Source: Nitrospirales bacterium
GTDB taxonomy: Bacteria; Nitrospirota; Nitrospiria; Nitrospirales; UBA8639
Length of the DNA: 64,000 nt
Assembly: GCA_021604005.1 (NCBI GenBank)
Contig: BQIV01000002.1
Coordinates: forward strand, 62,001 to 126,000
Direction: 5' to 3'
This document shows, piece by piece, positions 28,763 to 62,184 of the stretch. The notes under the pieces are model-generated. The model did not search any database, was not told where the DNA came from, and saw only the letters and a program-made list of their open reading frames with translations. The position numbers and the translations under genes were made by a program. The stretch's first letter is position 1. Every line of letters begins with the position of its first letter.

Positions 28763-30436
28763 CTAAATCCTGAACGTTCGAATCAATGCCTGTAATTCCG
28801 TCGCAAGTGCGCGCAAATCATGACTGGCCTTTGCAGATTCCGCCACGCCCCCAGACGCATCTTTAGTACTTTGGGCAACGGTTTCAAGATCATTCGCAAT
28901 CTGTCGAGTGGCCGATGACTGTTCTTCTGCCGCATCGGCTATTTGCTGGATCATGTACGTTGTTTGATTCACCATGCTTTGAATTTTTTCAAGGGTCTCG
29001 CCGGTCTTATTCGCCAACTCGACGCCTCCCAGTACTCGTTGAGTCCCATCTTCCATCGAGGCCACGGCACTCTTGGTATCATGTTGAATCTGTCGAATCA
29101 TATCACCAATTTCCTTCGTCGCCTTAGTCGTGCGTTCGGCGAGTTTCCGCACCTCATCCGCCACCACGGCAAACCCACGACCTTGCTCTCCGGCTCTTGC
29201 CGCCTCAATGGCCGCATTTAAGGCAAGTAAATTCGTCTGATCGGCAATATCCTCAATCACGCGAACAATATCGCCGATTTGATTGGACGATTTCCCAAGC
29301 GTCAGAATGATCGTCGATGACTGTCCAACTGCATCGGACACCTGTTGCATGCCAGCTACGGTCTGGACCATCACAGCACGCCCGGCTTGTGCCGTGTCCG
29401 ACGTATCCTTAGCGAGACGAGCCGCCTCCGTTGAATTCCGTGCGACTTCACTGGCCGTCATGGTCATTTCTTCCACAGCTGATGTCGATTGCAGCATTCG
29501 TGAGTTTTGTCCTTCGGAACTCTGCGATAACTCATTCGAGGCTGTCGACAGTTCCGTCGCCGAGGTAACAATCCGGCTGCTGGCTTCCGAGACCATACCC
29601 ATTGATCGTTGAATTTTCTCAATACACAAATTGAAGTACCGTCCCAACTCACCGATTTCATCATGACTGACAACCCGCACCCGTTTCGTTAAGTCTCCTT
29701 GTCCTTGTGCAATGTCCTTTGAAATCGCGGTCAAACCGTGGAGAGGTCGTACGATCACCTTTTCCAGAAACAGGTAGACCACAACCATACAGAGAAGCAG
29801 CATGGCACACAATATTCCCCCGCTTCGAATCACGGAGGCCATCATCTCTTCCTTCGCATGCGACATGGGAATTGACACGGCTAACACACCAATCACATCT
29901 CCGACTTGCTTATCAATATGGCAAGTCACACAAGCCGGTTCGGAAGCTCTATCGGCACTCGCTCGCCGGAACGTCGGTACGCCGTGAAGTAGTTCTTCCG
30001 ACGAATACGAGTCCGCACCGGCCATAATCGCGTCTAAGGCTTTACGTTCAAATTCGTCAGTTGGAGCATTGGCTGGGTTCATGGGCCGATCACTGAATAA
30101 TCGTGCGTGAAAGACGCCTTTGTCACTCAGCGCCTTTCCTATTTCTTGTGTCGCCGTGGCTGGAAATGGAATGGCGAGAGGATTCACTCCATGCTCCCGT
30201 GCCACAGTAATGTCCGAACCCAGAGGCGTTTTTTTAATTTTCCCTACATAGTGTTTGGCAATATAGGCTCGCGTGACGTCCATCTGAACTTGAACCATTG
30301 TGCTTTGTTCTTCTAACAAAGCGTACAAACGCGCCTCCTCTTGATGATAGAGAAACAGAAATGCGGTACAGATCATCACCGTCGTCATGCATCCGAGAGC
30401 GACACACAACTTCACTCCAATTTTCATGCGCGTCAT
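28763..30436 (-). CDS. Methyl-accepting chemotaxis protein with periplasmic Tll0287-like c-haem domain
   Basis: 557 residues from ATG 30436 (AAAGGAA upstream). Membrane helix ~10-30, a periplasmic domain, second helix ~205-225, HAMP, then the signalling hairpin with [33 protein letters not shown]. The periplasmic part has [12 protein letters not shown], an R-x-A-S segment and CVTCH at 169-173, a c-type haem attachment motif, as in Tll0287-like (DUF3365) sensors. It should sense redox state, oxygen or NO through haem, or bind a small ligand. No C-terminal docking pentapeptide. It lies 55 bases after the next receptor gene. Confidence 0.88.
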
Positions 30437-30491
30437 GCCTCGATTCCTTTCAGCTGAGAACTCCGAATCACACAATCTCTACACGTACATC

Positions 30492-48452: not shown

Positions 48453-51263
48453 TCAGGTCTCCAGACATTCCAGGGTTAATGATCCCACCGGCTGCTGCAA
48501 ACAGGTCTTCAAGACACAATCAACATCTAAGAGAGCGCTCACTTTTCCTTGGATGACAGTCGAGCCCAGCATGCCTGGACGATTCGATGTTGCGTGAGCA
48601 TCAATCTGAACATCCACAATGTCAATAATACGGTCAACCACAACTCCTACATATTGGCCATCATGATCCATAAGCACAACCTGCAACACGTCAGGTTCAT
48701 CAGATGGTGATTCGTTATACGACCCTAGCAGTGAAGATAACCACACAATCAATACAATCTGACCGTGATACCGCATCACGTGGTTGCCATCGACCACGTG
48801 CAACACCTGTTTCTGTACATCGGTGATTCGTGTGACCCTGTGGACCGGTATGGCCACACAATCATCTTCACCAACCTGAGCGATAACACACATCTGAGAT
48901 GTTCCTGAACTGGCGGTTCCTTCCTCTTGTGCAGGGTTCATAACTGGCAAGAACGAATCTTGACCCAACACAAAATTTGTGCGACGAGCCAAACCCATCA
49001 CATCTAAGACCAGAGCCACATGACCGTCACCCATGATTGTCACCCCTGCATACACATCCAATCCCTGAAGTGGCATCCCAAGTGGCTTGATCACAATTTC
49101 TTCAATATCCTGGACGGTCTCCACAATAAGGCCGAATCGAAAACAGCCAGCCTGTAGCACAACGATATGTGTGATATCTGAACACAACGACCCTCCCGTG
49201 CTCTCGGAGACAACAGGATGTATCTGTAATACGTTGTTCAAATGAAGGAGTGGAATGACATGTCCTCGATACCGATATAGCAACGCGTCCTGAACGACTT
49301 CTGTAACCTGCGCATATAATTCGGCATCGATGCGGACACATTCCTGAAGGTGGGTTTGGGAAATGGCAAAGCGTTCCTCACCAACCGTCACCATAAGAGC
49401 GGGACTGATCGTTAGCGTTAACGGTACGCTGACTTTAACCGTCGTACCTTCATGAGCCCTGCATGAAATTTCTATGCTTCCGCCAATATGCTCAATATTG
49501 GTTTTTACGACATCCATGCCGACGCCGCGCCCGGACAGATTCGTCACTTCCGCTGCCGTGGATAAGCCGGGGAGGAAAACAAGTTGCAAAATATCACGCT
49601 CCTGCATCCGCGAAACCTCGGCCTCCGTCACAACACCACACGCAATCGCCGCCTCTACAACGCGTTGCGTCGTAATCCCTCTACCATCGTCACGAATTTC
49701 AACATGCGCCTGTCCCCCTTCATGATAGGCACGCAACACAATTCGTCCTTGACGAGGTTTGCCATTGGCCTCCCGAACGTCAGGACGTTCTATGCCATGA
49801 TCAACAGCATTTCGTACAAGATGCGTCAATGGGCCTTGAATCGCTTCGAGAAGCATCTTATCCAATTCCGTCTCTTGTCCTTCCATTTCAAGTCGAATGT
49901 CTTTCCCACAGGCCAGAGCCAGATCTCGAACCACTCGTGGGAATGTGTTCCACATATTCCCAATGGGTTGCATTCGCGTTTTCATCAGTCCCGATTGCAA
50001 CTCTGCAGTAATCAGACTCAAGCGTTGAGCCGTCGCCATAAATTTGGAATCCTGTTGCATGCCAGGACATTGCACGATTTGATTTCGCGTCAAGACCAAC
50101 TCACCAACCATCCTCATCAATGTATCTAATACTGTCACATCAACACGGATTGATGACTCAGCCGCTCCGAGTTGGCGTGCATCCCCGACTCGATATGGGG
50201 CCTGTTGTCGCACACCACATTCCACCAAGTCCTGCGAACGAGAGTCGGCAGAACCCTGATTTGACGTCGTTGAGGAAACCGTCCCTGTTGAGAGCGGCGG
50301 CAGGCCTGGAGATGGCAATGCAGAGGAAACATCCTCTCCTGACAACTCAGGGCTCATTGGCATGTCAGACTCTGACGTCTGAAGCGCAACGAGCGTCGAG
50401 TGTAACTCCAAGTAATCATGTATCCCGTCATGTCGATATTCTGCAATACTGTCAAGCATCGTTCGAACGGCATCAACTAAAGACAAAAGCGCACTCACTC
50501 TTTCAACAGTAAGTGGAACGTCCCCATTACGAATACAACTCAACAATGCTTCTCCCGCATGCGTCAGACCTTCCAACTTGGCATACCCAAGAAACGAACA
50601 GGTTCCCTTAATGGTATGAATTCCACGAAATATACATGCCAGCTTTTCTTGACTCGAATGGCTTTCACTTGCAACAAGATCTCGTTCAACCTGCGACAAG
50701 CTTTCATGACTTTCCTTGAGAAACTCTACGACCGCTTCATCTAATTCAGGATTGGCTCGAACCGGCTCGCACATCACGGATGTATTCGGTGGATACTCCT
50801 GCACGGTCTCCGCATCAACAGGAGAACATGGCAAGGACGTCACAATCGACACGTCGCTGAGTAGGTCAACATCAGCCCCCCTCTCACATTGGAGTACCTC
50901 CAATTGCTGTTTCAATTCGACATATTCGTTTTCACCATCCATGCCTTCCTGCTCGATACATTCCAGCATGTGGCGAATCGCATCAACCATCGCTAACAGC
51001 GCCTGTGTCATCTTTGGAGTCAGTGATGATTCACGATCACGCACAACATGGAGTAACCGTTCACCAGTATCCGTGAGACTTTCTAACCTGAAGTATCCAA
51101 GAAATGCACAGGAGGATTTGATACTATGCGTCGCCCGAATGATACGGAAAAGAAGACGCTGGTCATGAGCAGACTCGAGACAGGATAAGTCCTGTTCGAT
51201 CTGACACACATGCTCATCACTTTCGATCAAGAATTCCGTAATGGCCGCATTCACATTATTCAT
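48453..51263 (-). CDS. cheA: CheA-type histidine kinase with two Hpt and two CheW domains (set 2)
   Basis: 936 residues. Two Hpt domains, H46 (ATHSIKSSCAFLGY) and H216 (GIHTIKGTCSFLGY), are similar enough to be an internal duplication. Then a low-complexity linker, the P3 helices (VTVLDTLMRMVGELVLTRNQ), HATPase (HLVRNAVDHGIE, IRDDGRGI, VTNLSGRGVGMDVV), a CheW-like regulatory domain and, after ~780, a second CheW-like domain (MCVIAQVGEDDCVAIPVHRVTR ...). Usual CheA is 650-700 residues with one of each. It may phosphorylate more than one regulator or bridge additional receptors. ATG 51263 follows a TTG. A sigma-28-like site lies upstream. Confidence 0.93.
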   Translation of the reverse strand: MNNVNAAITEFLIESDEHVCQIEQDLSCLESAHDQRLLFRIIRATHSIKSSCAFLGYFRLESLTDTGERLLHVVRDRESSLTPKMTQALLAMVDAIRHMLECIEQEGMDGENEYVELKQQLEVLQCERGADVDLLSDVSIVTSLPCSPVDAETVQEYPPNTSVMCEPVRANPELDEAVVEFLKESHESLSQVERDLVASESHSSQEKLACIFRGIHTIKGTCSFLGYAKLEGLTHAGEALLSCIRNGDVPLTVERVSALLSLVDAVRTMLDSIAEYRHDGIHDYLELHSTLVALQTSESDMPMSPELSGEDVSSALPSPGLPPLSTGTVSSTTSNQGSADSRSQDLVECGVRQQAPYRVGDARQLGAAESSIRVDVTVLDTLMRMVGELVLTRNQIVQCPGMQQDSKFMATAQRLSLITAELQSGLMKTRMQPIGNMWNTFPRVVRDLALACGKDIRLEMEGQETELDKMLLEAIQGPLTHLVRNAVDHGIERPDVREANGKPRQGRIVLRAYHEGGQAHVEIRDDGRGITTQRVVEAAIACGVVTEAEVSRMQERDILQLVFLPGLSTAAEVTNLSGRGVGMDVVKTNIEHIGGSIEISCRAHEGTTVKVSVPLTLTISPALMVTVGEERFAISQTHLQECVRIDAELYAQVTEVVQDALLYRYRGHVIPLLHLNNVLQIHPVVSESTGGSLCSDITHIVVLQAGCFRFGLIVETVQDIEEIVIKPLGMPLQGLDVYAGVTIMGDGHVALVLDVMGLARRTNFVLGQDSFLPVMNPAQEEGTASSGTSQMCVIAQVGEDDCVAIPVHRVTRITDVQKQVLHVVDGNHVMRYHGQIVLIVWLSSLLGSYNESPSDEPDVLQVVLMDHDGQYVGVVVDRIIDIVDVQIDAHATSNRPGMLGSTVIQGKVSALLDVDCVLKTCLQQPVGSLTLECLET

Positions 51264-51395
51264 CAAAATATACGTTTTCAGACATCATGCCACCGCACAA
51301 CGATAGGTAGTCACACACGCTGCCTCCGACACTCCTTCACATCCATCATCTGGATATTCACTGAAAAATCCGTGAAAGAGGGACACCTCTTCTTT

Positions 51396-51714: not shown

Positions 51715-52776
51715 TTAGGAGATGCTTTTTAGATGCGACAACATAGCCGCAGGAATATCGGAGAGCGGAAGAATTTTATCGACCCCTCCCGCCTTAATCG
51801 CTTCCTTCGGCATCCCGAAGACGACGCATGACGCCTCATCTTGCGCGATATTAAATGCCCCGGCCTTTTTCATTTCAAACATGCCGGCGGCACCATCGTT
51901 GCCCATACCTGTGAGAATCACACCAAGACTATTGGCTCCGGCATAATTCGCAACGGACCGAAACATCACATCCACAGCAGGGCGATGCCGATTGATGGGG
52001 GGATGTTGATTAAGGGTGACGTGATAGCGCGCACCGCTTCGACGAAGTTCCATATGATAGTTCCCTGGGGCGAGAAGGGCTTGTCCAGGAATAACGCTAT
52101 CCCCATCCTCTGCCTCTTTGACACTAATTTGACATACGTCATTCAAACGATCGGCAAAGGTTTTGGTAAACCGTTCGGGCATGTGCTGTGTCATAACAAT
52201 CGGAGGAACACTTGGCGGAAGCACTTCAAGCAATTCCTTTAGCGCTTCCGTTCCACCAGTCGACGCCCCGATGGCAATGATCGTATCCGTCGTCTTGATC
52301 ATGGACGATTGCGTTGCCAACTCACGAAGACGATCAGGATTCGCAGCAGCCGGAGCTCGCTTACGGACCGTGGCTGCTGCTGCAATTTTCACCTTACTGG
52401 TAATGGTTTCAGCCAGTTCCTCTAACCCATGCTGAACGTCGATTTTCGGCTTCGTGATAAAATCGACAGCTCCAAACTCCAACGCCCGTAAAGTCGTTTC
52501 ACAACCTGACTCCGTCAGCGAGCTGACCATCAGCACAGGCATCGGATGCCCGGCCATCACCTTCTGGAGAAAGGTCAAGCCGTCCATTTTCGGCATCTCC
52601 ACATCAAGGGTCAGCACATCGGGGTTCAGGCTTTTGATTTTATCTCGAGCAGCATACGGATCCGTGGCAGATCCCACCACTTCAATGTCCGGATCTTGCC
52701 TCAACAGTTCAGTCATGACTCCCCGAATTAACGCCGAGTCATCGACAATCAGCACTCGAATTTTTTTCTTACTCAT
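51715..52776 (-). CDS. cheB: Protein-glutamate methylesterase CheB (set 3)
   Basis: 353 residues from ATG 52776 after AAGGAGAG. Receiver with DD at 12-13, phosphosite D58 and KP at 109-110; methylesterase with GASTGG (Ser172), QHMP (His198) and GMGNDG (Asp294). It differs from the set 1 CheB in linker and in keeping the canonical KP motif, so the two are not recent duplicates. It ends the set 3 operon after cheD. Confidence 0.95.
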   Translation of the reverse strand: MSKKKIRVLIVDDSALIRGVMTELLRQDPDIEVVGSATDPYAARDKIKSLNPDVLTLDVEMPKMDGLTFLQKVMAGHPMPVLMVSSLTESGCETTLRALEFGAVDFITKPKIDVQHGLEELAETITSKVKIAAAATVRKRAPAAANPDRLRELATQSSMIKTTDTIIAIGASTGGTEALKELLEVLPPSVPPIVMTQHMPERFTKTFADRLNDVCQISVKEAEDGDSVIPGQALLAPGNYHMELRRSGARYHVTLNQHPPINRHRPAVDVMFRSVANYAGANSLGVILTGMGNDGAAGMFEMKKAGAFNIAQDEASCVVFGMPKEAIKAGGVDKILPLSDIPAAMLSHLKSIS

Positions 52777-52866
52777 ACGTCTCTCCTTGTTATCAAAAAC
52801 AGACAACGCGGACCAGCCGGCACACACACGCAACATCACCAGGTGTAACTGCCGTCACATGGCTGC

Positions 52867-53475
52867 TTAGAACAACGTCACGTCACCCGCTGCCGGTTCT
52901 TTCTTGAGCGTCGATTCATATTGCCGTTCTTGTTGGGCGATTTTTTGAGATTGCACGCGATCTAGCTTTTTCATGAGCACTTTGCCGGTATCCGTAAAAT
53001 AATAGACCTTCCGTGGACACACATCCCCGACATCAGCTTTCACCGGTGGCATGCCTTCCTGTCGCAGATAATCCATTGCCCATGCGGCGTTTTTGGCCCC
53101 AACATCTAAGTTGCCGTCATAAATTTTTCCCCCGCCAAAGACTTTGGCCTCCAAACGCTTTCGATGCCCACCACGGCTTAAAATACCGTTGATCAACATT
53201 TCCATGGCATAACTGCCATATCGCCCGGACTCCGACCAGGCATCATTGCTATGCTGACCATTTGGAGCTGCCAGCATAAAATGATTCATTCCGCCAACCC
53301 CGGCTTGAGGATCCCGGAGACAGACCGAAATGCACGACCCCAGAACGGTATACACCACCATTGGCGTTTCACTCAAAAAGTATTCACCGGGTAGAATCAC
53401 CGCCACTTCATGCGGAAACCGGATATCTTTCATTCGTCGGATATGTCCGAACTCCATATTTGAACTTTGGGGCAT
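52867..53475 (-). CDS. cheD: Chemoreceptor glutamine deamidase CheD
   Basis: 202 residues. VVYTVLGSCISVCLRD carries the catalytic Cys48 and GGMNHFML the catalytic His65; GGGKIYDGNLDVGAKNAAWAMDYL follows. CheD converts receptor glutamines to glutamates and can bind CheC, but no CheC is in the window while a CheZ is. It lies between cheR and cheB, matching sets that serve pentapeptide-tailed receptors. The C-terminal ~45 residues are a charged extension. Confidence 0.93.
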   Translation of the reverse strand: MPQSSNMEFGHIRRMKDIRFPHEVAVILPGEYFLSETPMVVYTVLGSCISVCLRDPQAGVGGMNHFMLAAPNGQHSNDAWSESGRYGSYAMEMLINGILSRGGHRKRLEAKVFGGGKIYDGNLDVGAKNAAWAMDYLRQEGMPPVKADVGDVCPRKVYYFTDTGKVLMKKLDRVQSQKIAQQERQYESTLKKEPAAGDVTLF

Positions 53476-53518: not shown

Positions 53519-53660
53519 CGTGAGACGGGAAACGTCAAACGAACAACGTACGATACATACATTCAGCGTTTTTCAATTCATGACCTGCATGTTCAGATTC
53601 TTTCTAACGCTTCTATGTTCGTCTCTCGTTTCTCATCGACCGTTTGACGTTTCACATCTT
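53519..53660. repeat. Facing heptamer-repeat arrays between cheR and cheD
   Basis: A perfect 13-base inverted repeat, gaaacgtcaaacg (53529-53541) against cgtttgacgtttc (53641-53653), lies within longer imperfect arms of gtgagac/gggaaac and tctctcg/tttctca units. The centre of ~100 bases has no ORF. The right arm adjoins the cheR stop. Confidence 0.65.
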
Positions 53661-54467
53661 CTGATAAATCGTGGGGGCAATGTACGTAAAGTCATGTTCT
53701 ACCCACTGTAAACTCTCGGAATGTCCAATAAAGAGATATCCCCCAGGCTTGAGGTATCGAAAAAACTTGCGCACCAGACGAGATTGGGTATCGCGGTCAA
53801 AATAAATCATGACATTCCGGCAAAAGACGACATTCAATGGTTCCCGGATGGGAAAGGTATCATCCATCAGATTAATACGCGTAAAACGCACGACATTCGC
53901 AATCTGCGGTTTGACTTTGACAAAATGAGCCTTTTCCCCTTTTCCCCGTAAGAAGTGACGGCGTACGAGTTCAGGATCGAGACCGGCAATGCGCTCATCT
54001 TCATAGACACCCGCCGCAGCCTTGGCAAGTACTCTCGTTGAAATATCTGAAGCCAGGACCTTGAAACTCCAATGCGATGGATTCAATACCGAATCGTGCA
54101 ACGTCATGGCTATCGAATACGGCTCCTCTCCAGAGGACGATGCCGAAGACCAAATTCGAATGTGCCGCACATCAGCTAACGTGGGCAAGATTTTTTCACG
54201 AAGAAAATCAAAATGAACCGGCTCCCGAAAAAAGTCGGTTTTATTGGTCGAAATCAGATCTAATAGATTCGTGAGTTCTTCCTGCCCGGCATCCCCTCGC
54301 ACATAATCCAGATATTCCTGATACGTGGATAATTCCAACATGCGAAGCCGTTTCCCGAGCCTCGAAACAATGAGCGTCTTTTTATCGCCGCTCAGCGTAA
54401 TGCCAACCTGCTCGTAAATAAATTTCTGAAATTGACTGTACTCGGTATCGGAGATTGTTGCATTCAT
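53652..54467 (-). CDS. cheR: Chemotaxis protein methyltransferase CheR (set 3)
   Basis: 271 residues. N-terminal helical domain with YEQVGITLSGDKKTLIVSRLGKRLR, then STNKTDFFREP, SASSSGEEPYSIAM (SAM site), VLASDIS and VFCRNVMIYFDRDTQ. It is the canonical, E. coli-sized CheR with the beta-subdomain region that binds receptor tails; the receptor encoded three genes upstream ends in a matching pentapeptide. Confidence 0.95.
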   Translation of the reverse strand: MNATISDTEYSQFQKFIYEQVGITLSGDKKTLIVSRLGKRLRMLELSTYQEYLDYVRGDAGQEELTNLLDLISTNKTDFFREPVHFDFLREKILPTLADVRHIRIWSSASSSGEEPYSIAMTLHDSVLNPSHWSFKVLASDISTRVLAKAAAGVYEDERIAGLDPELVRRHFLRGKGEKAHFVKVKPQIANVVRFTRINLMDDTFPIREPLNVVFCRNVMIYFDRDTQSRLVRKFFRYLKPGGYLFIGHSESLQWVEHDFTYIAPTIYQKM

Positions 54468-54556: not shown

Positions 54557-55024
54557 TTACTGACTGGGTACCCACTGAAACAACATCACGTAGACCGCAT
54601 ACGCGGTCACAATCGTCCCGGAAAACGTCCCAACCAAAATCTTCCCCTGTATCCGGTGACGCTGGATAACATTCACCAGATTCTCCACTTCCGCTTCCAA
54701 TCGTAGCCGTGTTAGGCCGGTATAGAGGTTCGTGATTCCCAGACCAATGGTCGCAACGGCCAAACTCGTATGAAGAACAAGAACTGGAATATAATACTGC
54801 CAATATTCGTCAACTGTTCCCGGAAATTCATCTCGTCCAAACATCACCTGTTTCGCAACATACCCGGCAAGCCACAATCCAACCAACGTGCATGACGCCA
54901 TCATCCATTTTGCATGCCGAGGGATATCATGGCGTTTTCCCGCACGTACCCCAAAGAGCGCGATTATATATGCCAGGGTCATGCTGACCAGCACGCCATA
55001 CCACATTGCATCATGTGCATTCAT
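54557..55024 (-). CDS. DUF420-like four-helix membrane protein
   Basis: 155 residues from ATG 55024 with four hydrophobic segments: MWYGVLVSMTLAYIIALFGV, MMASCTLVGLWLAGYV, YYIPVLVLHTSLAVATIGLGI and ILVGTFSGTIVTAYAVYVML. Conserved-looking histidines stand at RHAKWM, VLHTSL and IQRHRI near membrane faces, as in DUF420 proteins, which are often found with haem-copper oxidase or haem-related genes. It sits between cheR and a c-haem protein inside the che operon, so a redox or haem-linked role in taxis is plausible but unproven. Confidence 0.65.
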   Translation of the reverse strand: MNAHDAMWYGVLVSMTLAYIIALFGVRAGKRHDIPRHAKWMMASCTLVGLWLAGYVAKQVMFGRDEFPGTVDEYWQYYIPVLVLHTSLAVATIGLGITNLYTGLTRLRLEAEVENLVNVIQRHRIQGKILVGTFSGTIVTAYAVYVMLFQWVPSQ

Positions 55025-55117
55025 CACCATACGGCCTTTACAGAAAGATGTCAGGACACTCCATGCACTCTGCCTTTGCATCACCATCAATGGCTACGCG
55101 ACAAATATACACACACA

Positions 55118-55144
55118 TTATCGGTTGACTCACACAATACATGA
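55118..55144 (-). promoter_or_regulatory. Candidate sigma-28 promoter for the DUF420-cheR-cheD-cheB genes
   Basis: On the minus strand TCATGTAT (55137-55144) and ACCGATAA (55118-55125) are 11 bases apart: 5 of 8 and 7 of 8 to consensus. The DUF420-like ATG is about 95 bases downstream. It would split the set 3 genes into two transcripts. Confidence 0.35.
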
Positions 55145-55455
55145 ACTGCATATGGGAGGTTTTCTTTGAAACGTACAAGCCGCGATATAGCCATTCCGCT
55201 GGACGTCCGTCTATTCGTCCTGTGTGTGTACACAATGGGTGTATGGGGATTCGTGAGATGTGATGTGGACTGACGACAGAAGCCCACATGCGGCACAGCG
55301 GATAACTGCCATGAACCATACGGTGTAGAGAACCGTCTCTCTTAAATACGATGGAAGAGGGAGGGAACGATAGCACACAAATCAGACACCCACAGGGCGA
55401 AGCAAAAGACACTGAACGGGCTCAGGTCTTTCGCCCCACCATGTCATCGACTCAA
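55145..55455. other. Non-coding spacer before the DUF420-like gene
   Basis: 311 bases. A plus-strand frame of 35 codons at 55166-55273 begins with TTG after GGGAGG but has no recognisable content. No array or strong hairpin seen. Confidence 0.4.
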
Positions 55456-56031
55456 TTATCCGCGCATGCGAATGATAATAGCCCCCATGAAATCGTCTTT
55501 TTTCCAATCACGTTTGGTGGTTTTGGGATGCTGGTTATGACAATCGGCACAACCCTGGGAAATGGCGAAATCCGCAGACATGCCTTTAAATTGCGTGCCA
55601 TCTTGGAACGTCAGCATCTTTTCTTTCCCACTTGCAAGCCTGGTTAACATTTCTTTTTCCATTGGAGTCTTGGCTTGGTTACTTTTGTACAGCGGATACG
55701 TCCCGACAAGTGACAATTCATACCCTTGGATTTCATAGCCTAAAGCTTTCACGTACTGTGCAGGCAACATCACGGCATGATCTTCTTTGACCCAGTTTTC
55801 CGACGTCTTCATTCCTGACGCTTTCACTTTGCGAAGAACACTTTGCGAATAAATCGTTCGTGCCGCTCTGACTGTTGCAAGAATATACTTGGTCATCGCA
55901 TCTCGATCGAGGGTAAAGTCCTTGGTCATCGCAGCCTGCCCGTTCGAGAAAAACGTCATGCCGCCAATCACCACGATCATCATCGCCGTGATGATCACGG
56001 ACCAGACTCGCTTCTTTATTAGGCTTTTCAT
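55456..56031 (-). CDS. Stand-alone Tll0287-like (DUF3365) c-type haem protein
   Basis: 191 residues from ATG 56031 (AAAGGAG upstream). An N-terminal membrane/signal segment (~9-28, possible cleavage after GQA) exports the protein. The body has an LVGTYPLYKSNQAKTPMEKEML stretch and CADCH at 161-165 followed by KKDDFMGAIII, the pattern of Tll0287-like sensors that bind haem c in the periplasm. It is of the same domain family as the sensor part of the receptor at 28.8 kb. Between a receptor gene and cheR, it may present a redox or gas signal to the set 3 receptor. Confidence 0.8.
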   Translation of the reverse strand: MKSLIKKRVWSVIITAMMIVVIGGMTFFSNGQAAMTKDFTLDRDAMTKYILATVRAARTIYSQSVLRKVKASGMKTSENWVKEDHAVMLPAQYVKALGYEIQGYELSLVGTYPLYKSNQAKTPMEKEMLTRLASGKEKMLTFQDGTQFKGMSADFAISQGCADCHNQHPKTTKRDWKKDDFMGAIIIRMRG

Positions 56032-56188: not shown

Positions 56189-59122
56189 TCAGAATTCCTC
56201 AAAAAAGTCATCATCCCGTTGCCGGCGATCATGACCGTTTCCGGAACCAACACCCGCTTTCTCCGGTTCAGATGCAGACGACGATTGAGCCGGAACTGGT
56301 GACGACTTTGCGGAGGTGTGAGCCGTTTTCTGCTGGGCGACTGAGCCCATTGACTTCGCTGGTTCGCTTCCACTCCGCTTGACTTGCTGAACGCGACCAC
56401 CTACCGCACCACTCGACTTCGCAGACCCAGCATCATCAGTTTTGAAAAATGCGACCTGCGTCAACAGCTCACCGGCTTGCTGCCGCATGGATTGCGACGC
56501 GGAAGTCGTTTGTTCCACCAACGCCGCGTTTTGCTGCGTCGACTGGTCCATCTGAATGACGGCCTTGTTGACTTGATCGATACCGGCCGCTTGTTCCTGT
56601 GAGGCCGCGCTGATCTCTGAAATAATATCCGTCACACGTTTCACGGAGTTCACGATTTCCTCTAAGGTTTGTCCGGATTGGTTCACGAGTTCGCTTCCGT
56701 CTCCAACTTTTTGGACTGATTCATTAATAAGCGTTTTAATCTCCTTCGCAGCCGTCGCCGATCGTCCGGCCAAATTCCGGACTTCAGAGGCCACAACCGC
56801 AAATCCACGACCCTGTTCTCCCGCACGGGCGGCTTCAACAGCCGCATTCAACGCCAAGAGGTTCGTTTGGAAGGCAATCTCATCGATCACATTGATAATA
56901 TCTGCAATTTTCTTACTGCTCTTGTTGATTTCACTCATGGCATCGACGGCTTTTTCCGTTACCGCCCCGCCTTTCTCCGCGACTTCGCGGGCCGCGACAG
57001 CCAATTGATTGGCCTGTTTCGCATTATCCGCGTTTTGCTTGATCGTCGACGTCATTTCCTCCATCGACGCACTGGTTTCTTCCAACGCCGAGGCTTGTTG
57101 CGATGTCCGTTGCGAGAGATCCTCATTGCCACTGGTAATTTCCTGAGAAGCCGTACTGACACTGTCGGCCCCTTCCCGTACGGCCGCCACAATGCCCGTC
57201 AGGTTTTTAATGGCTGAATTCAAACTTTGCTTAATCTTGTTAAATTCACCCTCATAGTTCCCATCCATCGTTTTGGATAAATGCCCTTCCGATAGACCTT
57301 GCAGCACTTCCGTGGCCTCTTTCAATGGAGAGACAATGGCATCCAGGAGACGATTCACTCCGCCAGAAAGGCTCTTGAAGAATCCTTCAAACTGGTCCGC
57401 ATCGATGCGATTCGATAAGTCACCGGCCGCGGCAGCCCCGATTAATTGATCCACTTCCTTTTCGGCTTTCTTTTGCGCGGTAATATCGGACCACTCCAGC
57501 ACATTGCCCAAATATTCTCCATCCGTCGACATAATGGCTGCCGCATTTAGATCCATCATTAAAGGCCCAACTTGAATTTCAGCACGATACGGCAGATTAC
57601 GTGGATCATCTAATAATTTCCGTTGGTGAGACGGATTCTTATGATATTGATCGATACTCGACCCCACCATCTTGGATGCGTCGAAACCCGGTATGCCCTT
57701 TTGGATGTCGCTTTCATGTTTTTTCAGCGTCTTAGCCGAGGCATTATTTTGATAGATGATTTGATAGTTGCGATCACAGACCAATACATTGGTACTGGCA
57801 TTATCCAATGCCGTCTTAATCCGCATCATTTCATTTGCGGCTTGCTGTTGTTTCGTGATACTACTTTGAATTTCCGACGCCATTTGGTTGAATGCATCGC
57901 CCAATTGCCCTATCTCGTCCTTGGATTTCACATCCACGCGAGCATCATAGTCACCTGAGGACATTTTTTCCGCTGCGGATTGTACCCGAACAACCTGTTG
58001 CGCTCCTGTCCGTCCGACATACCAACCAATCGGTACGATCAGGGCTAAACAAATCAACCCGGTTTGCATCACACTGGTTTGCACACTATTAGCGTCGGCT
58101 AAGGCTTCCTCTTCAGGCACACGTACCACCATCGACCAGCTCATGCCCGGAAATCCCATCGATCCCTTCAGATGAGTATACCCTGCCACTTGAGAAATGC
58201 CTTTTCTCGCATGCATCTCCGTTAGATATCCCTCTTTTCCGACAACCGCTTCCTTGACCGAGGGCACCCCCATTTCTATGAGATTGGTATTGAGTAACAC
58301 ATCAAAATTTCGCGGAACATCCTCCGTCCCATAGGTGGTCGGATCAAAATCCACAAGCACCCGTCCCTTGGGATCAAGAAGCGTAATCTCCGCTCCAGGA
58401 TATCCAAGAGATTTCATCGATCGATACGTCATAAGAAACATCTGTTCAATGCCACGCATGTTGGTCCGATTCGTCCAATAACCTACGACTTCGCCGTTGT
58501 GACCATAGACCGGCGCCGAGAATCCCATGACATAGCCGTCTCGTCCTGTCGCTTGGGCCACATCCTTATCAATGTGCGTATCTTCGATGTAGGTTCCCGT
58601 CCATGTGTCATTGCCAGAAGAAGTATAGGGTCGTTTTGTCGTATACTCCCCCTTTTCGAGCGCTTTAAACCAGGGAGATTGACTGTAATTTTTCTCGAAA
58701 ATAAATTGACTGTCTATTGGATTGCCTTCCGCATCTTGGTTATTCACGGCAACCACATCACCGCGCGTATCCACCATAATCAACAAATCGTAAATCCCGT
58801 ACGCTGCCGCGTATTTATTCATGGTCTGACTTATCGTATTATACGGCGTGGGGTCATACCACTGAGAAATTCGATGTACGGCATCGTTGTACCCGAACGC
58901 CTGGACATCGCCATAGCGTTCGGCAAGATTTCGATCGATCTTATCGGATAAGGCTTCCGCCACCGTTTGAAATCGCAGACCGACTCCCGCCTTCATGTCT
59001 TCTCCAGCGTTGTAGGCAATCAACCCGACCGCCGCCATTGGGATCACACCAAAGATCAGGAATATCGTGACCAATTTGGCCGCAATTCCCCACGTTAGAA
59101 AGGTTTGCATCATCTGTTTCAT
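56189..59122 (-). CDS. Methyl-accepting chemotaxis protein, Cache-HAMP-PAS with C-terminal docking pentapeptide (set 3)
   Basis: 977 residues from ATG 59122, preceded by a G-rich ribosome site; the frame runs 39 codons further up without family content. TM1, a periplasmic dCache-type domain paralogous to the other two ([27 protein letters not shown]), TM2, HAMP, PAS with [12 protein letters not shown], further HAMP-like segments (GDLSNRI, GHLSKTM), then a Tsr-like tip [40 protein letters not shown]. After a Ser/Ala/Pro linker the protein ends in FFEEF, fitting the x-[HFYW]-x-x-[HFYW] CheR/CheD tether. Confidence 0.93.
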
Positions 59123-59204
59123 GGCACCCTCACCCCCCTTTGATTGCTGTATAAATGTCTGAGTCTGTTGTAACCCGTTGCGATGTGTTTTCATCATACC
59201 TATC

Positions 59205-59711
59205 CTATTCCGCGCGGTTCGCCGTGACAGCCTCGACATCCGTGTCGGCCATCACCCGATCGATATCCAGTAAAGTCACCAGCCGATCATTCGCATTCCC
59301 AATACCCGACACAAAGGTAATATCCGCTTTGTGTCCCAACTCCGGAGGAGGTTGAATGTCTTTGCTAGCTAACTCCAAAACATCCGAGACCGCATCGACG
59401 AGAAATCCCATCACCCGGTCTCTGACATTCACGACCACAATTACGGTAAACGCCGTCGGCTCGGTCGGCTCCATCCCGAATTTCAATCGAAGGTCGACGA
59501 TTGGAACGATCGTTCCTCGCAGATTGAGCACTCCCTTGACATAATCTGGAGTATTGGGGATTTTCGTAACGGCGGTGTACCCTTTAATTTCTTGAACCTT
59601 GAGAATATCCACGCCATAATGTTCTTCGGCTAAATCAAACGTCAGATATTGTTGACTATCCGTATTCAGCCCGATTTGATTGACCGTCGCCTCTGCCGTC
59701 TCTGTGGACAT
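59205..59711 (-). CDS. cheW: Chemotaxis adaptor CheW (set 3)
   Basis: 168 residues. [46 protein letters not shown] is very close to E. coli-type CheW, followed by [14 protein letters not shown] and [20 protein letters not shown] precedes the ATG. It is paired with the Tsr-like receptor 82 bases downstream. Confidence 0.96.
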
Positions 59712-59724
59712 GAAATCCTCCTTC

Positions 59725-60031
59725 TTAATCAGTAAGGGAGTAAGGAGTGAAGGGGTAGGCGAAAGAGAAACCTCTCGATAGCTCTTTCATCATGCATTTC
59801 ATCCCTCACCCCTCATCCTTTTCACTTCGCTTTCAATTTCACCATATATAGCCGGTTCTAATACCTTCCACTGGTTGAACCGTTGTACCGCGCTAAGGTA
59901 GTTGTATGCTTCTGTTTGGAACTTATTTGGATTCGCTATACTCATGAACGCTTTTTCTTGCCCTCTTCTTTCCCGCTTCTCGTTTCACGTTTCCCGCTTC
60001 ACGCCCCACGCTTCACTCTTCACGCCTCAGG
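59725..60031. repeat. Heptamer-repeat arrays flanking a small ORF
   Basis: The right array (59969-60031) is the clearest in the window: tttcccg, cttctcg, tttcacg, tttcccg, cttcacg, ccccacg, cttcact, cttcacg, cctcagg, all in register and running into the cheA stop codon. The left array (59730-59830) contains gagtaag/gagtgaa units and, in reverse, cctcacc-cctcatc-cttttca. The 48-residue ORF lies between them and its last codons are part of the left array. Confidence 0.7.
59799..59945 (-). CDS. Putative 48-residue protein between cheA and cheW (set 3)
   Basis: ATG at 59945, TGA at 59801. The peptide is MSIANPNKFQTEAYNYLSAV... and ends KRMRGEG; the first ~40 residues have ordinary composition and look like one amphipathic helical unit rich in aromatic residues, while the last seven are encoded by heptamer-repeat DNA. 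The ribosome site is weak (AAGAAAAAG). No family recognised. It fits the operon's strand and spacing, so a small adaptor or a remnant are both possible. Confidence 0.4.
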   Translation of the reverse strand: MSIANPNKFQTEAYNYLSAVQRFNQWKVLEPAIYGEIESEVKRMRGEG

Positions 60032-62141
60032 CAGCTTCAATCTTTGCCATTCTGGATAATTTGACAAGACTCGGCACATCAAGAATGAGCGCCACCTGTC
60101 CATCGCCCAAAATGGTCGCTCCCGATATACCTTCTATTTTTTGAAAATTCTGTTCCAGACTCTTGATCACCACTTGCTGTTGACCTGTCAGCTCATCAAC
60201 AAAAAGCGCAACGCGTTTTCCTTCTGATTCCACGATCACTAATAACGCCTCTGCCGGATCGGTAAACTCCGGCTGCACACCAAAGACATCGTACAGCCGT
60301 ACCATCGGCACCCATTCTCCACGAAGGTTAAAGACTTCCCCTTTGCCGACGACCGTCTGCAGATCGGTGTGTTTCGGTCGAATGGATTCGGTCACGGAAA
60401 TAAGCGGAATGATATAATTTTCTTGCGCGACACGAACCGTCATGCCATCAATAATGGCTAAGGTCAACGGAAGCTTGAGGGTCAGTTTCGACCCTTTCCC
60501 TTCAACAGACTGAATGGCCACACTTCCGCCCAACGCTTCAATATTCCGTTTCACGACATCCATGCCGACTCCCCGGCCGGAAATATCGGTAATAGTATCC
60601 GCTGTGGAAAAACCTGGCCGAAAGATTAACAACCAGACCTCTTCATCCGTCAGGGATTCACCCTCGGTAATCAATCCTTTCTCAATCGCCTTGTTGAGAA
60701 TCTTCTGTTTATTCAGGCCGCGACCATCATCTTCCACGCTAATACAAATATTTCCGCCATCGTGCAGCGCATTGAGCCGAATGGTTCCCAATTCCAGTTT
60801 TCCTGCCGCGGTGCGTTCTTCCGGACCTTCAAGACCATGGTCGGCCGAATTTCTAACCAAATGCGTTAAGGGATCCCCAATGGCCTCGATCAACGTCTTA
60901 TCTAATTCCGTGTCTTCGCCGGACATGACCAATTGAATTTTTTTGCCACTCTTACTCGCCAGATCGCGAACCAAACGTGGAAACCGGTTGAACGCCGTCG
61001 CCCCTATCGGCACCATGCGAATGGACATGACCCGCTCCTGCAGTTCCCGTGTGTTGCGTTCCAACTGAATGATACGCTCTTGCAGCACCGGCAATTGATT
61101 CATGGTGAACTTCTCGCCGAGATCGGTAATCATGGACTGCGTAATGACCAGCTCTCCCACGAGATTAATCAATTTGTCGATTTTTTCCGTGTCTACCCGA
61201 ATCGACGCCGTTTCGCTTTTCTTCATCTGTTGCTGTTTGGTCAACGCTTGATTGACCTGTTGCGGCGATACGGCTTTCTCTTCTACTAAAATCTGACCTA
61301 ACGGTTTCTGCTTTTCGAGCGCCGTCTCAATCTGTGCCGGAGACGCAGCGCCTTCATCCACAAGGATTTCTCCGATGGTTTTATAGCCCTCTTCTTCCGT
61401 GGGATGCGCTTCACTGTCGGTAAACGTCAGCTCACTCCCATCACGAACAAAATCGAACACGGCATCCAGATCTTTCACCGGCTTGTCCGTCTCTAATAGA
61501 ACGGTCCATGCCAAATAACAGCATTCGGCATCCAGATCGGACAGCGGTGGCAGCGCACCGGCATCGACGCGTAATTCTTTGAGTACCCCGAAACCTTCAA
61601 GTTCTCTAAAGATCTGTGCCGGATCAAGGCCGCGTTGAAATAACTCGACCAATGGTTTCCAGAATATCGTGACGATCCGTGACGTCGGGGGGCCTGACTC
61701 GGCAGCAGGTGCCAGCGGGGTTTCCGCCGGACTGGAGGGACCGTCAACAGGAGCCGCTTCACAACAGGCAACGAGTTTTTCTTCGATCACGCGGATACCG
61801 GCTTCATCGTAGGCATCACCGCTATGCGCAACGTCTAATAATGTCTTCAATCCATCCAAGGCCTGCAGAAGAAGATCGATAATATTTTTCGTCACCAGCA
61901 TCTGGCTGTTGCGCAATTTATCCAAGATGTTTTCCATCTTGTGCGTCAAGCCGCCGATCGCCGTAAAGTTAAACATCCCGGCATTCCCCTTGATGGAGTG
62001 CGCAGCCCGGAATATTCGATTTAATAAGTCGAGATCGGTCGGCCGTTGCTCTAACTCCAGAAGCCCTGTCTCCATTGTCTCAACGTGTTCAGCGGATTCC
62101 TCGAAGAAGGATTCTTGAAAATGAGAAAGATCAACAGCCAT
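60027..62141 (-). CDS. cheA: Chemotaxis histidine kinase CheA (set 3)
   Basis: 704 residues from ATG 62141, seven bases after GAGG. Hpt with H48 (AAHSIKGNAG), a P2-like domain (TIFWKPLVELFQRGLDPAQIFREL), two short repeated helical hairpins in the linker (IGEILVDEGAASPAQIETAL and LGQILVEEKAVSPQQVNQAL), P3 helices (IDKLINLVGELVITQSMI), HATPase (HLVRNSADHGLE, EDDGRGLN, ITDISGRGVGMDVV) and a CheW-like end. The layout is that of proteobacterial CheA; it should pair with the set 3 CheW, CheY and tail-bearing receptor. Confidence 0.96.
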   Translation of the reverse strand: MAVDLSHFQESFFEESAEHVETMETGLLELEQRPTDLDLLNRIFRAAHSIKGNAGMFNFTAIGGLTHKMENILDKLRNSQMLVTKNIIDLLLQALDGLKTLLDVAHSGDAYDEAGIRVIEEKLVACCEAAPVDGPSSPAETPLAPAAESGPPTSRIVTIFWKPLVELFQRGLDPAQIFRELEGFGVLKELRVDAGALPPLSDLDAECCYLAWTVLLETDKPVKDLDAVFDFVRDGSELTFTDSEAHPTEEEGYKTIGEILVDEGAASPAQIETALEKQKPLGQILVEEKAVSPQQVNQALTKQQQMKKSETASIRVDTEKIDKLINLVGELVITQSMITDLGEKFTMNQLPVLQERIIQLERNTRELQERVMSIRMVPIGATAFNRFPRLVRDLASKSGKKIQLVMSGEDTELDKTLIEAIGDPLTHLVRNSADHGLEGPEERTAAGKLELGTIRLNALHDGGNICISVEDDGRGLNKQKILNKAIEKGLITEGESLTDEEVWLLIFRPGFSTADTITDISGRGVGMDVVKRNIEALGGSVAIQSVEGKGSKLTLKLPLTLAIIDGMTVRVAQENYIIPLISVTESIRPKHTDLQTVVGKGEVFNLRGEWVPMVRLYDVFGVQPEFTDPAEALLVIVESEGKRVALFVDELTGQQQVVIKSLEQNFQKIEGISGATILGDGQVALILDVPSLVKLSRMAKIEAA

Positions 62142-62184
62142 GCTCAACCTCTAGCCTAATTAGAGTAAACAGTGAAATATATTC

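Follow-up and report, generated by a model that had tools for sequence, protein, structure and literature searches.

The window, that is, the whole stretch of 64,000 nucleotides of DNA that was analysed, contains a chemotaxis gene cluster in which two genes of other families lie between a chemoreceptor and the genes cheR, cheD and cheB. All genes of the cluster are on the minus strand. The upstream part consists of cheA (60027-62147), whose product matches the Pfam domains Hpt, H-kinase_dim, HATPase_c and CheW, and cheW (59205-59711; Pfam CheW), followed by the chemoreceptor gene (MCP, 56189-59239), which probably starts at an internal ATG at 59122. The two intervening genes, tll (55456-56031) and DUF420 (54557-55024), come next and are followed by cheR (53652-54467; NCBIfam CheR), cheD (52867-53475) and cheB (51715-52839), the last two with NCBIfam matches above the cut-off. 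The next CheA downstream (48453-51266, 937 aa) displays two apparent Hpt-like N-terminal repeats, each with the motif H-[ST]-I-K, and its CheW-like C-terminal part appears enlarged.

The haem-c protein and the four-helix membrane protein

The tll gene encodes a protein of 191 aa that belongs to the Tll0287-like, or sCache_heme, family (PF11845, E 1.5e-11, 45.3 bits against a cut-off of 24.1) and received no name from the NCBIfam search. Its signal peptide ends in ...SNGQAA, a plausible A-x-A site, and the protein is probably exported and soluble rather than lipid-anchored. The only cysteines, C161 and C164, are those of the CADCH motif (C161-H165), and such a CxxCH haem-c motif is 99% conserved across the family (PMC12889525). 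Sequence searches of the PDB gave no match for tll, either as a single sequence or with A2, and a broader profile found the Tll0287 structure 5b82 weakly; the structural model of tll (pLDDT 65, moderate confidence) returned 5b82 as the top Foldseek match (E 8.5e-4, prob 1.0). The Pfam match, the CxxCH motif and the 5b82 fold are shared with the Tll0287-like/DUF3365/sCache_heme proteins Tll0287 (5B82), GSU0582 and GSU0935 (PMC12889525; PMC8396549), and the stand-alone form of tll is the commonest architecture of this family.

Unlike Tll0287, tll has no axial cysteine, and it belongs to a che-linked clade with a fixed place within the che cluster. In the che-linked copies, H85 and M88 of the sequence DHxxMLPAQ are invariant, whereas other family members of the window genome are LPLPAQ-like at this position. 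The Tll0287-type redox subgroup has a cysteine as distal axial ligand, and tll has no cysteine beyond CADCH. Because the distal ligand of GSU0935 is a methionine (PMC8396549), M88 or H85 would be a plausible switchable haem ligand. The study that names the family sCache_heme likens stand-alone members, with their Cys/His ligation, to redox proteins, and those that carry fused signalling parts to NO sensors (PMC12889525). The tll protein does not fit neatly into either class, as it is stand-alone and yet without the axial cysteine. The window genome holds 12 Tll0287-like stretches in total, and another Tll0287-domain MCP, a haem-c receptor, is encoded in the window at 28763-30475.

The second gene encodes a four-helix membrane protein of 155 aa with an ATG start (an alternative TTG start lies upstream at 55090) that is assigned to PF04238 (E 4.6e-22, 79 bits against a cut-off of 30.5). 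Its AlphaFold model consists of four helices (pLDDT 88.5). Three histidines, H37, H85 and H123, are invariant across 22 orthologues of the che-linked branch and are common to this branch and the full-length DUF420 proteins of other Nitrospirota. Given the helix boundaries in the model (H34-62 and H113-149), H37 and H123 would stand level with each other near the cytoplasmic face, an arrangement that could accommodate haem or a metal. Nothing credible was found for DUF420 in the PDB by sequence; the closest solved fold is that of cytochrome oxidase subunit III (TM 0.6-0.66, E 0.1-0.6), a likeness that is only a lead. In the window copy, the near-invariant cytoplasmic loop LRYGxGVGAMV is replaced by LRLEAEVENLV (54665-54700, residues ~109-120), a change that paired compensating indels would explain, the alignment being ambiguous at this point. 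The characterised DUF420 protein, CtaM, is required for haem-copper oxidases and has been proposed to be a haem chaperone (PMC4958251) and, later, a copper exporter (PMC13344008). The window protein resembles this CtaM (YozB) oxidase-assembly family in its four helices and three family histidines. Unlike CtaM, its subfamily is che/mot-linked, appears to head a cheR-cheD-cheB unit and resides in hosts without CtaA or a haem-copper oxidase.

Pfam matches, coordinates and model confirm the original prediction that a stand-alone CADCH haem-c protein and a four-helix DUF420 protein lie between the receptor and cheR-cheD-cheB. The haem-c protein had been read as secreted or anchored; the signal peptide and A-x-A site favour the first option and leave anchoring improbable. 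The accompanying statement that such genes normally go with respiration agrees with what is known of DUF420/CtaM (PMC4958251) and is only half right for the haem-c family, in which ~half of the proteins carry fused signalling domains (PMC12889525).

Conservation and separate histories of the two genes

The DUF420 subfamily was sought in 98 related genomes and, by a wider scan, in 84,980 species. It was confined to Nitrospirales/Nitrospirota records in the scan (41 loci, including Candidatus Nitrospira defluvii FP929003) and was present in 29 of the 98 related genomes at E <= 1e-40. Most copies adjoin cheR/cheD or have motAB on one side and STAS/CheY-type genes on the other. The order cheA-cheW-MCP-(MCP)-tll-(tll)-DUF420-cheR-cheD-cheB is found in the window's genus and in some members of the sister genus g9. 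Two arrangements without tll are found in Nitrospiraceae, namely cheA-cheW-MCP-DUF420-cheR-cheD-cheB-STAS-CheY-RR/phosphatase-Hpt-RR/ATPase and cheB-MCP-cheW-motA-motB-DUF420, the latter continuing with STAS or cheR. Within the window's family, 24 of the 25 genomes with this cheD also carry a che-linked tll, and tll and cheD lie 1.1-2.5 kb apart on the same contig in all testable genomes (23/23). The recurrence of the same gene order across the order Nitrospirales is far beyond chance. The DUF420 tree broadly matches the genome groups and is therefore consistent with vertical descent of this gene.

Three genus mates (L041, L042 and L082) have two tandem tll genes, of which the window retains the first type alone; a remnant of the second in the 430 bp gap of the window is not claimed, the similarity being weak (34 residues, E ~0.09). 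Several Nitrospira loci (L064, L076, L054, L150 and others) contain a second chemosensory cluster with DUF420 directly 3' of motA-motB; a Tll0287 haem-c MCP is encoded upstream, and downstream lies a partner-switching-like block of STAS, CheY, PP2C-phosphatase, Hpt and ATPase genes.

In spite of this conservation of place, the fates of the two genes are separate. DUF420 occurs without tll throughout Nitrospiraceae, and more than a dozen genomes from the window's family have tll with DUF420 missing or broken. DUF420 is found without this cheD in nine genomes (high-quality or draft) and cheD without an intact DUF420 in 27. Five genomes (G033, G019, G021, G012 and G043; loci L080, L083, L085, L122 and L136) have a multi-stop DUF420 pseudogene between tll and cheR while tll is open; the single DUF420 lesions in L077-L079 may be assembly errors. 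As for tll, its nearest relatives beyond the window's family are orphan genes with no common context. In the tree, the che-linked stand-alone tll clade is monophyletic (100/100) and stands apart from both these orphans and the Tll0287-MCP domains, which rules out that tll split off from the Tll0287-MCP of the same cluster.

Sequences between the genes tell a similar story. A strong hairpin followed by a T-run lies 3' of the last tll gene in all nine relatives examined closely (9/9). Across the family as a whole, the 80 nt that follow tll have a median folding energy of -33.9 kcal/mol and are T-rich in 21 of 26 cases, and the 80 nt after the MCP have a median of -30.2 kcal/mol; values after other che genes are roughly -11 to -19. 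At this position the window has an RNA hairpin just 3' of the tll stop (55390-55445, minus strand; MFE -30.9 kcal/mol, z -6.65) with no clear T-run, and it has no hairpin 3' of the MCP. None of the loci tested has a terminator separating DUF420 from cheR, and in Nitrospira the gaps are 7 bp between DUF420 and cheR and 8 bp between cheR and cheD. From the terminator after tll, the lack of one before cheR and the 7 bp gap, DUF420 looks like the leading gene of a cheR-cheD-cheB unit, and tll appears to be terminated on its own. No promoter is claimed, since a 16-base site with sigma-54-like -24/-12 spacing occurs at chance level in the window and the scan for sigma-70-type promoters, like that for simple terminators, was at shuffle level. 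The dN/dS values against the nearest sibling, read with synonymous sites near saturation, are 0.14 (DUF420), 0.07 (tll), 0.04 (cheW) and 0.02 (cheR); the value for cheB was disregarded because it stems from an offset in the alignment. These values indicate that DUF420 and tll are functional genes under purifying selection, less constrained than the che genes.

How do these histories bear on the original prediction? The proposed order receptor-DUF3365-DUF420-cheR does recur in related genomes (L041, L042, L044, L047-L049, L051 and L082), so that the genes are not beside cheR in this genome only. Separate expression of the two genes, which would have spoken against that prediction, finds partial backing, as judged from sequence, in the conserved intrinsic terminator between tll and DUF420. 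The prediction of an accessory redox/haem input module keeps its haem/redox/gas theme, for which the cluster receptors provide support, and loses the joint module. The idea that tll and DUF420 form a single redox relay, from membrane haem to periplasmic haem c, feeding the dCache receptor draws on the two genes being neighbours in the window's genus and in some members of g9 and on the co-occurrence of the receptor ectodomain with tll. We regard it as improbable because the distributions are separate, a conserved terminator lies between the genes, DUF420 pseudogenes are found beside intact tll and tll homologues are orphans elsewhere. Finally, no paper in the literature collection searched links DUF420 with chemotaxis, the sole match concerning DUF4201, and the conserved tll/DUF420-che arrangement, built from known families, is apparently undescribed so far, as had been suspected.

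A different question is whether either gene has anything to do with chemotaxis. Both could be ordinary periplasmic or membrane redox genes lodged in the che cluster, and strong terminators 3' of tll (in several relatives also 5' of it), the orphan state of close tll homologues, the decay of DUF420 while the cluster persists and the faster evolution of both genes compared with che genes would all fit. Against this stand the adjacency held across the order despite upstream rearrangements, the distance of 7 bp from cheR in Nitrospira and the presence of DUF420 in two che/mot contexts, mainly with haem-type receptors. A passenger status of both genes is thus a real possibility, to which we give clearly less than an even chance.

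Receptors of the cluster

The PAS domain of the window receptor (57470-57835) was recognised by phmmer as Aer2-like, with matches to the Aer2 PAS structures 3vol (E 3.6e-29), 4hi4 (1.4e-24) and 6ceq (1.5e-22). The motif HKNPxHQR is common to the window domain and Aer2, and the C-terminal tryptophan is aligned (LEW/VQW). We take the histidine motif and this tryptophan to be residues with roles in the haem PAS of Aer2. Binding of haem b by the PAS domain of the window receptor is a prediction. The entire PAS-HAMP-signalling part (the receptor reads ectodomain, HAMP, PAS, HAMP_2, MCPsignal) matches Aer2-type haem-PAS chemoreceptors (3VOL, 4HI4, 6CEQ) at E 1.9e-45, including HKNPxHQR. Unlike Aer2, the window receptor has a periplasmic dCache-like ectodomain and is linked to the haem-c and DUF420 genes. 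Even at E 10, this ectodomain (58055-59062) itself gives no Pfam Cache match. The label 'Cache' is nevertheless reasonable, because the orthologous ectodomain in G008 (L125), 59% identical to it, matches dCache_1 at 2.3e-6. Ectodomain identity is 48-77% among tll-bearing loci of the window's family and at most 26% (<=26%) in the Nitrospiraceae loci examined.

In Nitrospira, the MCP of the cluster is a soluble globin and PAS receptor, and the combination of soluble globin, Aer2-like PAS and HAMP_2 is standard for the DUF420-cheR-cheD-cheB cluster there (L057-L063 and L065-L067). The globin-PAS MCP of Nitrospira defluvii was noted earlier in a paper whose text contains no 'DUF' (PMC6194562); this receptor belongs to a homologous che cluster with DUF420. 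It differs from the window locus in that the receptor is soluble and the cluster lacks tll. Where DUF420 follows motAB, and also in genus g9, the cluster receptor is a Tll0287 haem-c MCP.

Among the scorable Nitrospiraceae clusters, where L052 and L148 form one contig and were counted once, the receptor is of a haem type in 17 of the 23 with DUF420 and in 0 of the 6 without it (Fisher p 0.002); the genomes are related and thus phylogenetically non-independent, so that p-values overstate the receptor and tll associations. The clusters without DUF420 have four-helix-bundle (4HB) receptors. Because 4HB receptors occur in four DUF420 clusters and PAS-only receptors in another two, the link between DUF420 and haem receptors is a tendency. 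The receptors support a haem/redox/gas theme independently of tll and DUF420. Oxygen/NO/redox taxis is the likely theme of the cluster.

The oxidase question and possible functions

Profile searches found no match to CtaA (PF02628) or COX1 (PF00115) in the window genome, in its genus mates G001-G003 or in N. defluvii (G066). A functional CtaM stands alongside CtaA/CtaB and an aa3-type oxidase, and neither PF02628 nor PF00115 is present here. The lack of both proteins makes an oxidase-assembly role unavailable to DUF420 and, within profile sensitivity, rules it out. Membership of PF04238 would be the argument for a genuine CtaM that builds a heme-copper oxidase and is lodged here by chance; this is extremely improbable in a genome without CtaA and COX1, in which a different DUF420 paralogue occupies a respiratory neighbourhood.

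Supply of a cofactor is another way of keeping a CtaM-like activity. DUF420 might supply or insert haem, or copper, for the haem receptors of the cluster, as proposed for CtaM and the aa3 oxidase, with tll independent of it. In its favour are the functions proposed for the family, haem chaperone in one paper (PMC4958251) and copper exporter in another (PMC13344008), the retention of all three family histidines and the correlation with haem receptors in Nitrospiraceae. However, DUF420 also accompanies 4HB and PAS-only receptors, and an intact copy is present in G001 and in several genomes of g9 where no haem-b domain was detected in the receptors of the cluster. We consider such a role, taken alone, unlikely.

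The explanation that we prefer, and to which we would give about an even chance, sees tll and DUF420 as accessory genes, each confined to certain lineages and dispensable by itself, of a chemosensory cluster that is ancestral in Nitrospirales and attuned to oxygen, nitric oxide or redox state. On this view DUF420, which is related to CtaM and has been inherited vertically, would head the cheR-cheD-cheB adaptation unit and most likely work at the membrane with the haem-based receptors, either by handling their haem or metal or by itself binding haem or metal at H37/H123. The tll protein, gained in the window's family, would be an exported mono-haem c protein of Cache fold, devoid of the axial cysteine of Tll0287, that most likely reports or buffers periplasmic redox state or NO near the dCache receptor. 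Counting against this explanation are the genomes, many in number, in which DUF420 is broken or lost while the che cluster is entire, the 4HB or PAS-only receptors of some DUF420 clusters and the close tll homologues that are orphans elsewhere. A bolder reading, which we hold to be doubtful, is that a branch of CtaM/DUF420 was recruited to chemotaxis adaptation as a membrane component, a four-helix protein that binds haem or a metal and is expressed together with CheR, CheD and CheB. It would feed membrane redox or gas status into an array of haem receptors, and in one family of the order tll would add a further input from the periplasm. In all these readings the biochemical roles of tll and DUF420 are inferred.

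All that is known of DUF420/CtaM comes from the biogenesis of oxidases, and it is disputed whether the protein acts as a haem chaperone or as a copper exporter. A che-tied subfamily in genomes without an oxidase or haem-A synthase offers a way to learn the function of this fold minus the oxidase. In addition, the chemosensory cluster of nitrite-oxidising and related Nitrospirales, bacteria whose taxis is almost unstudied, is predicted to respond to oxygen, NO or redox state, a response that is testable.

The window genome has one further DUF420 gene (G000:C4:172758-173069; L084 gene 4), which is of another, more divergent class that is near-universal in Nitrospirales. A 625-aa membrane protein encoded nearby reads from its sequence as bd-type-oxidase-like, a copper-protein-like gene also lies in the neighbourhood, and this paralogue is possibly the respiratory counterpart of the che-linked DUF420.
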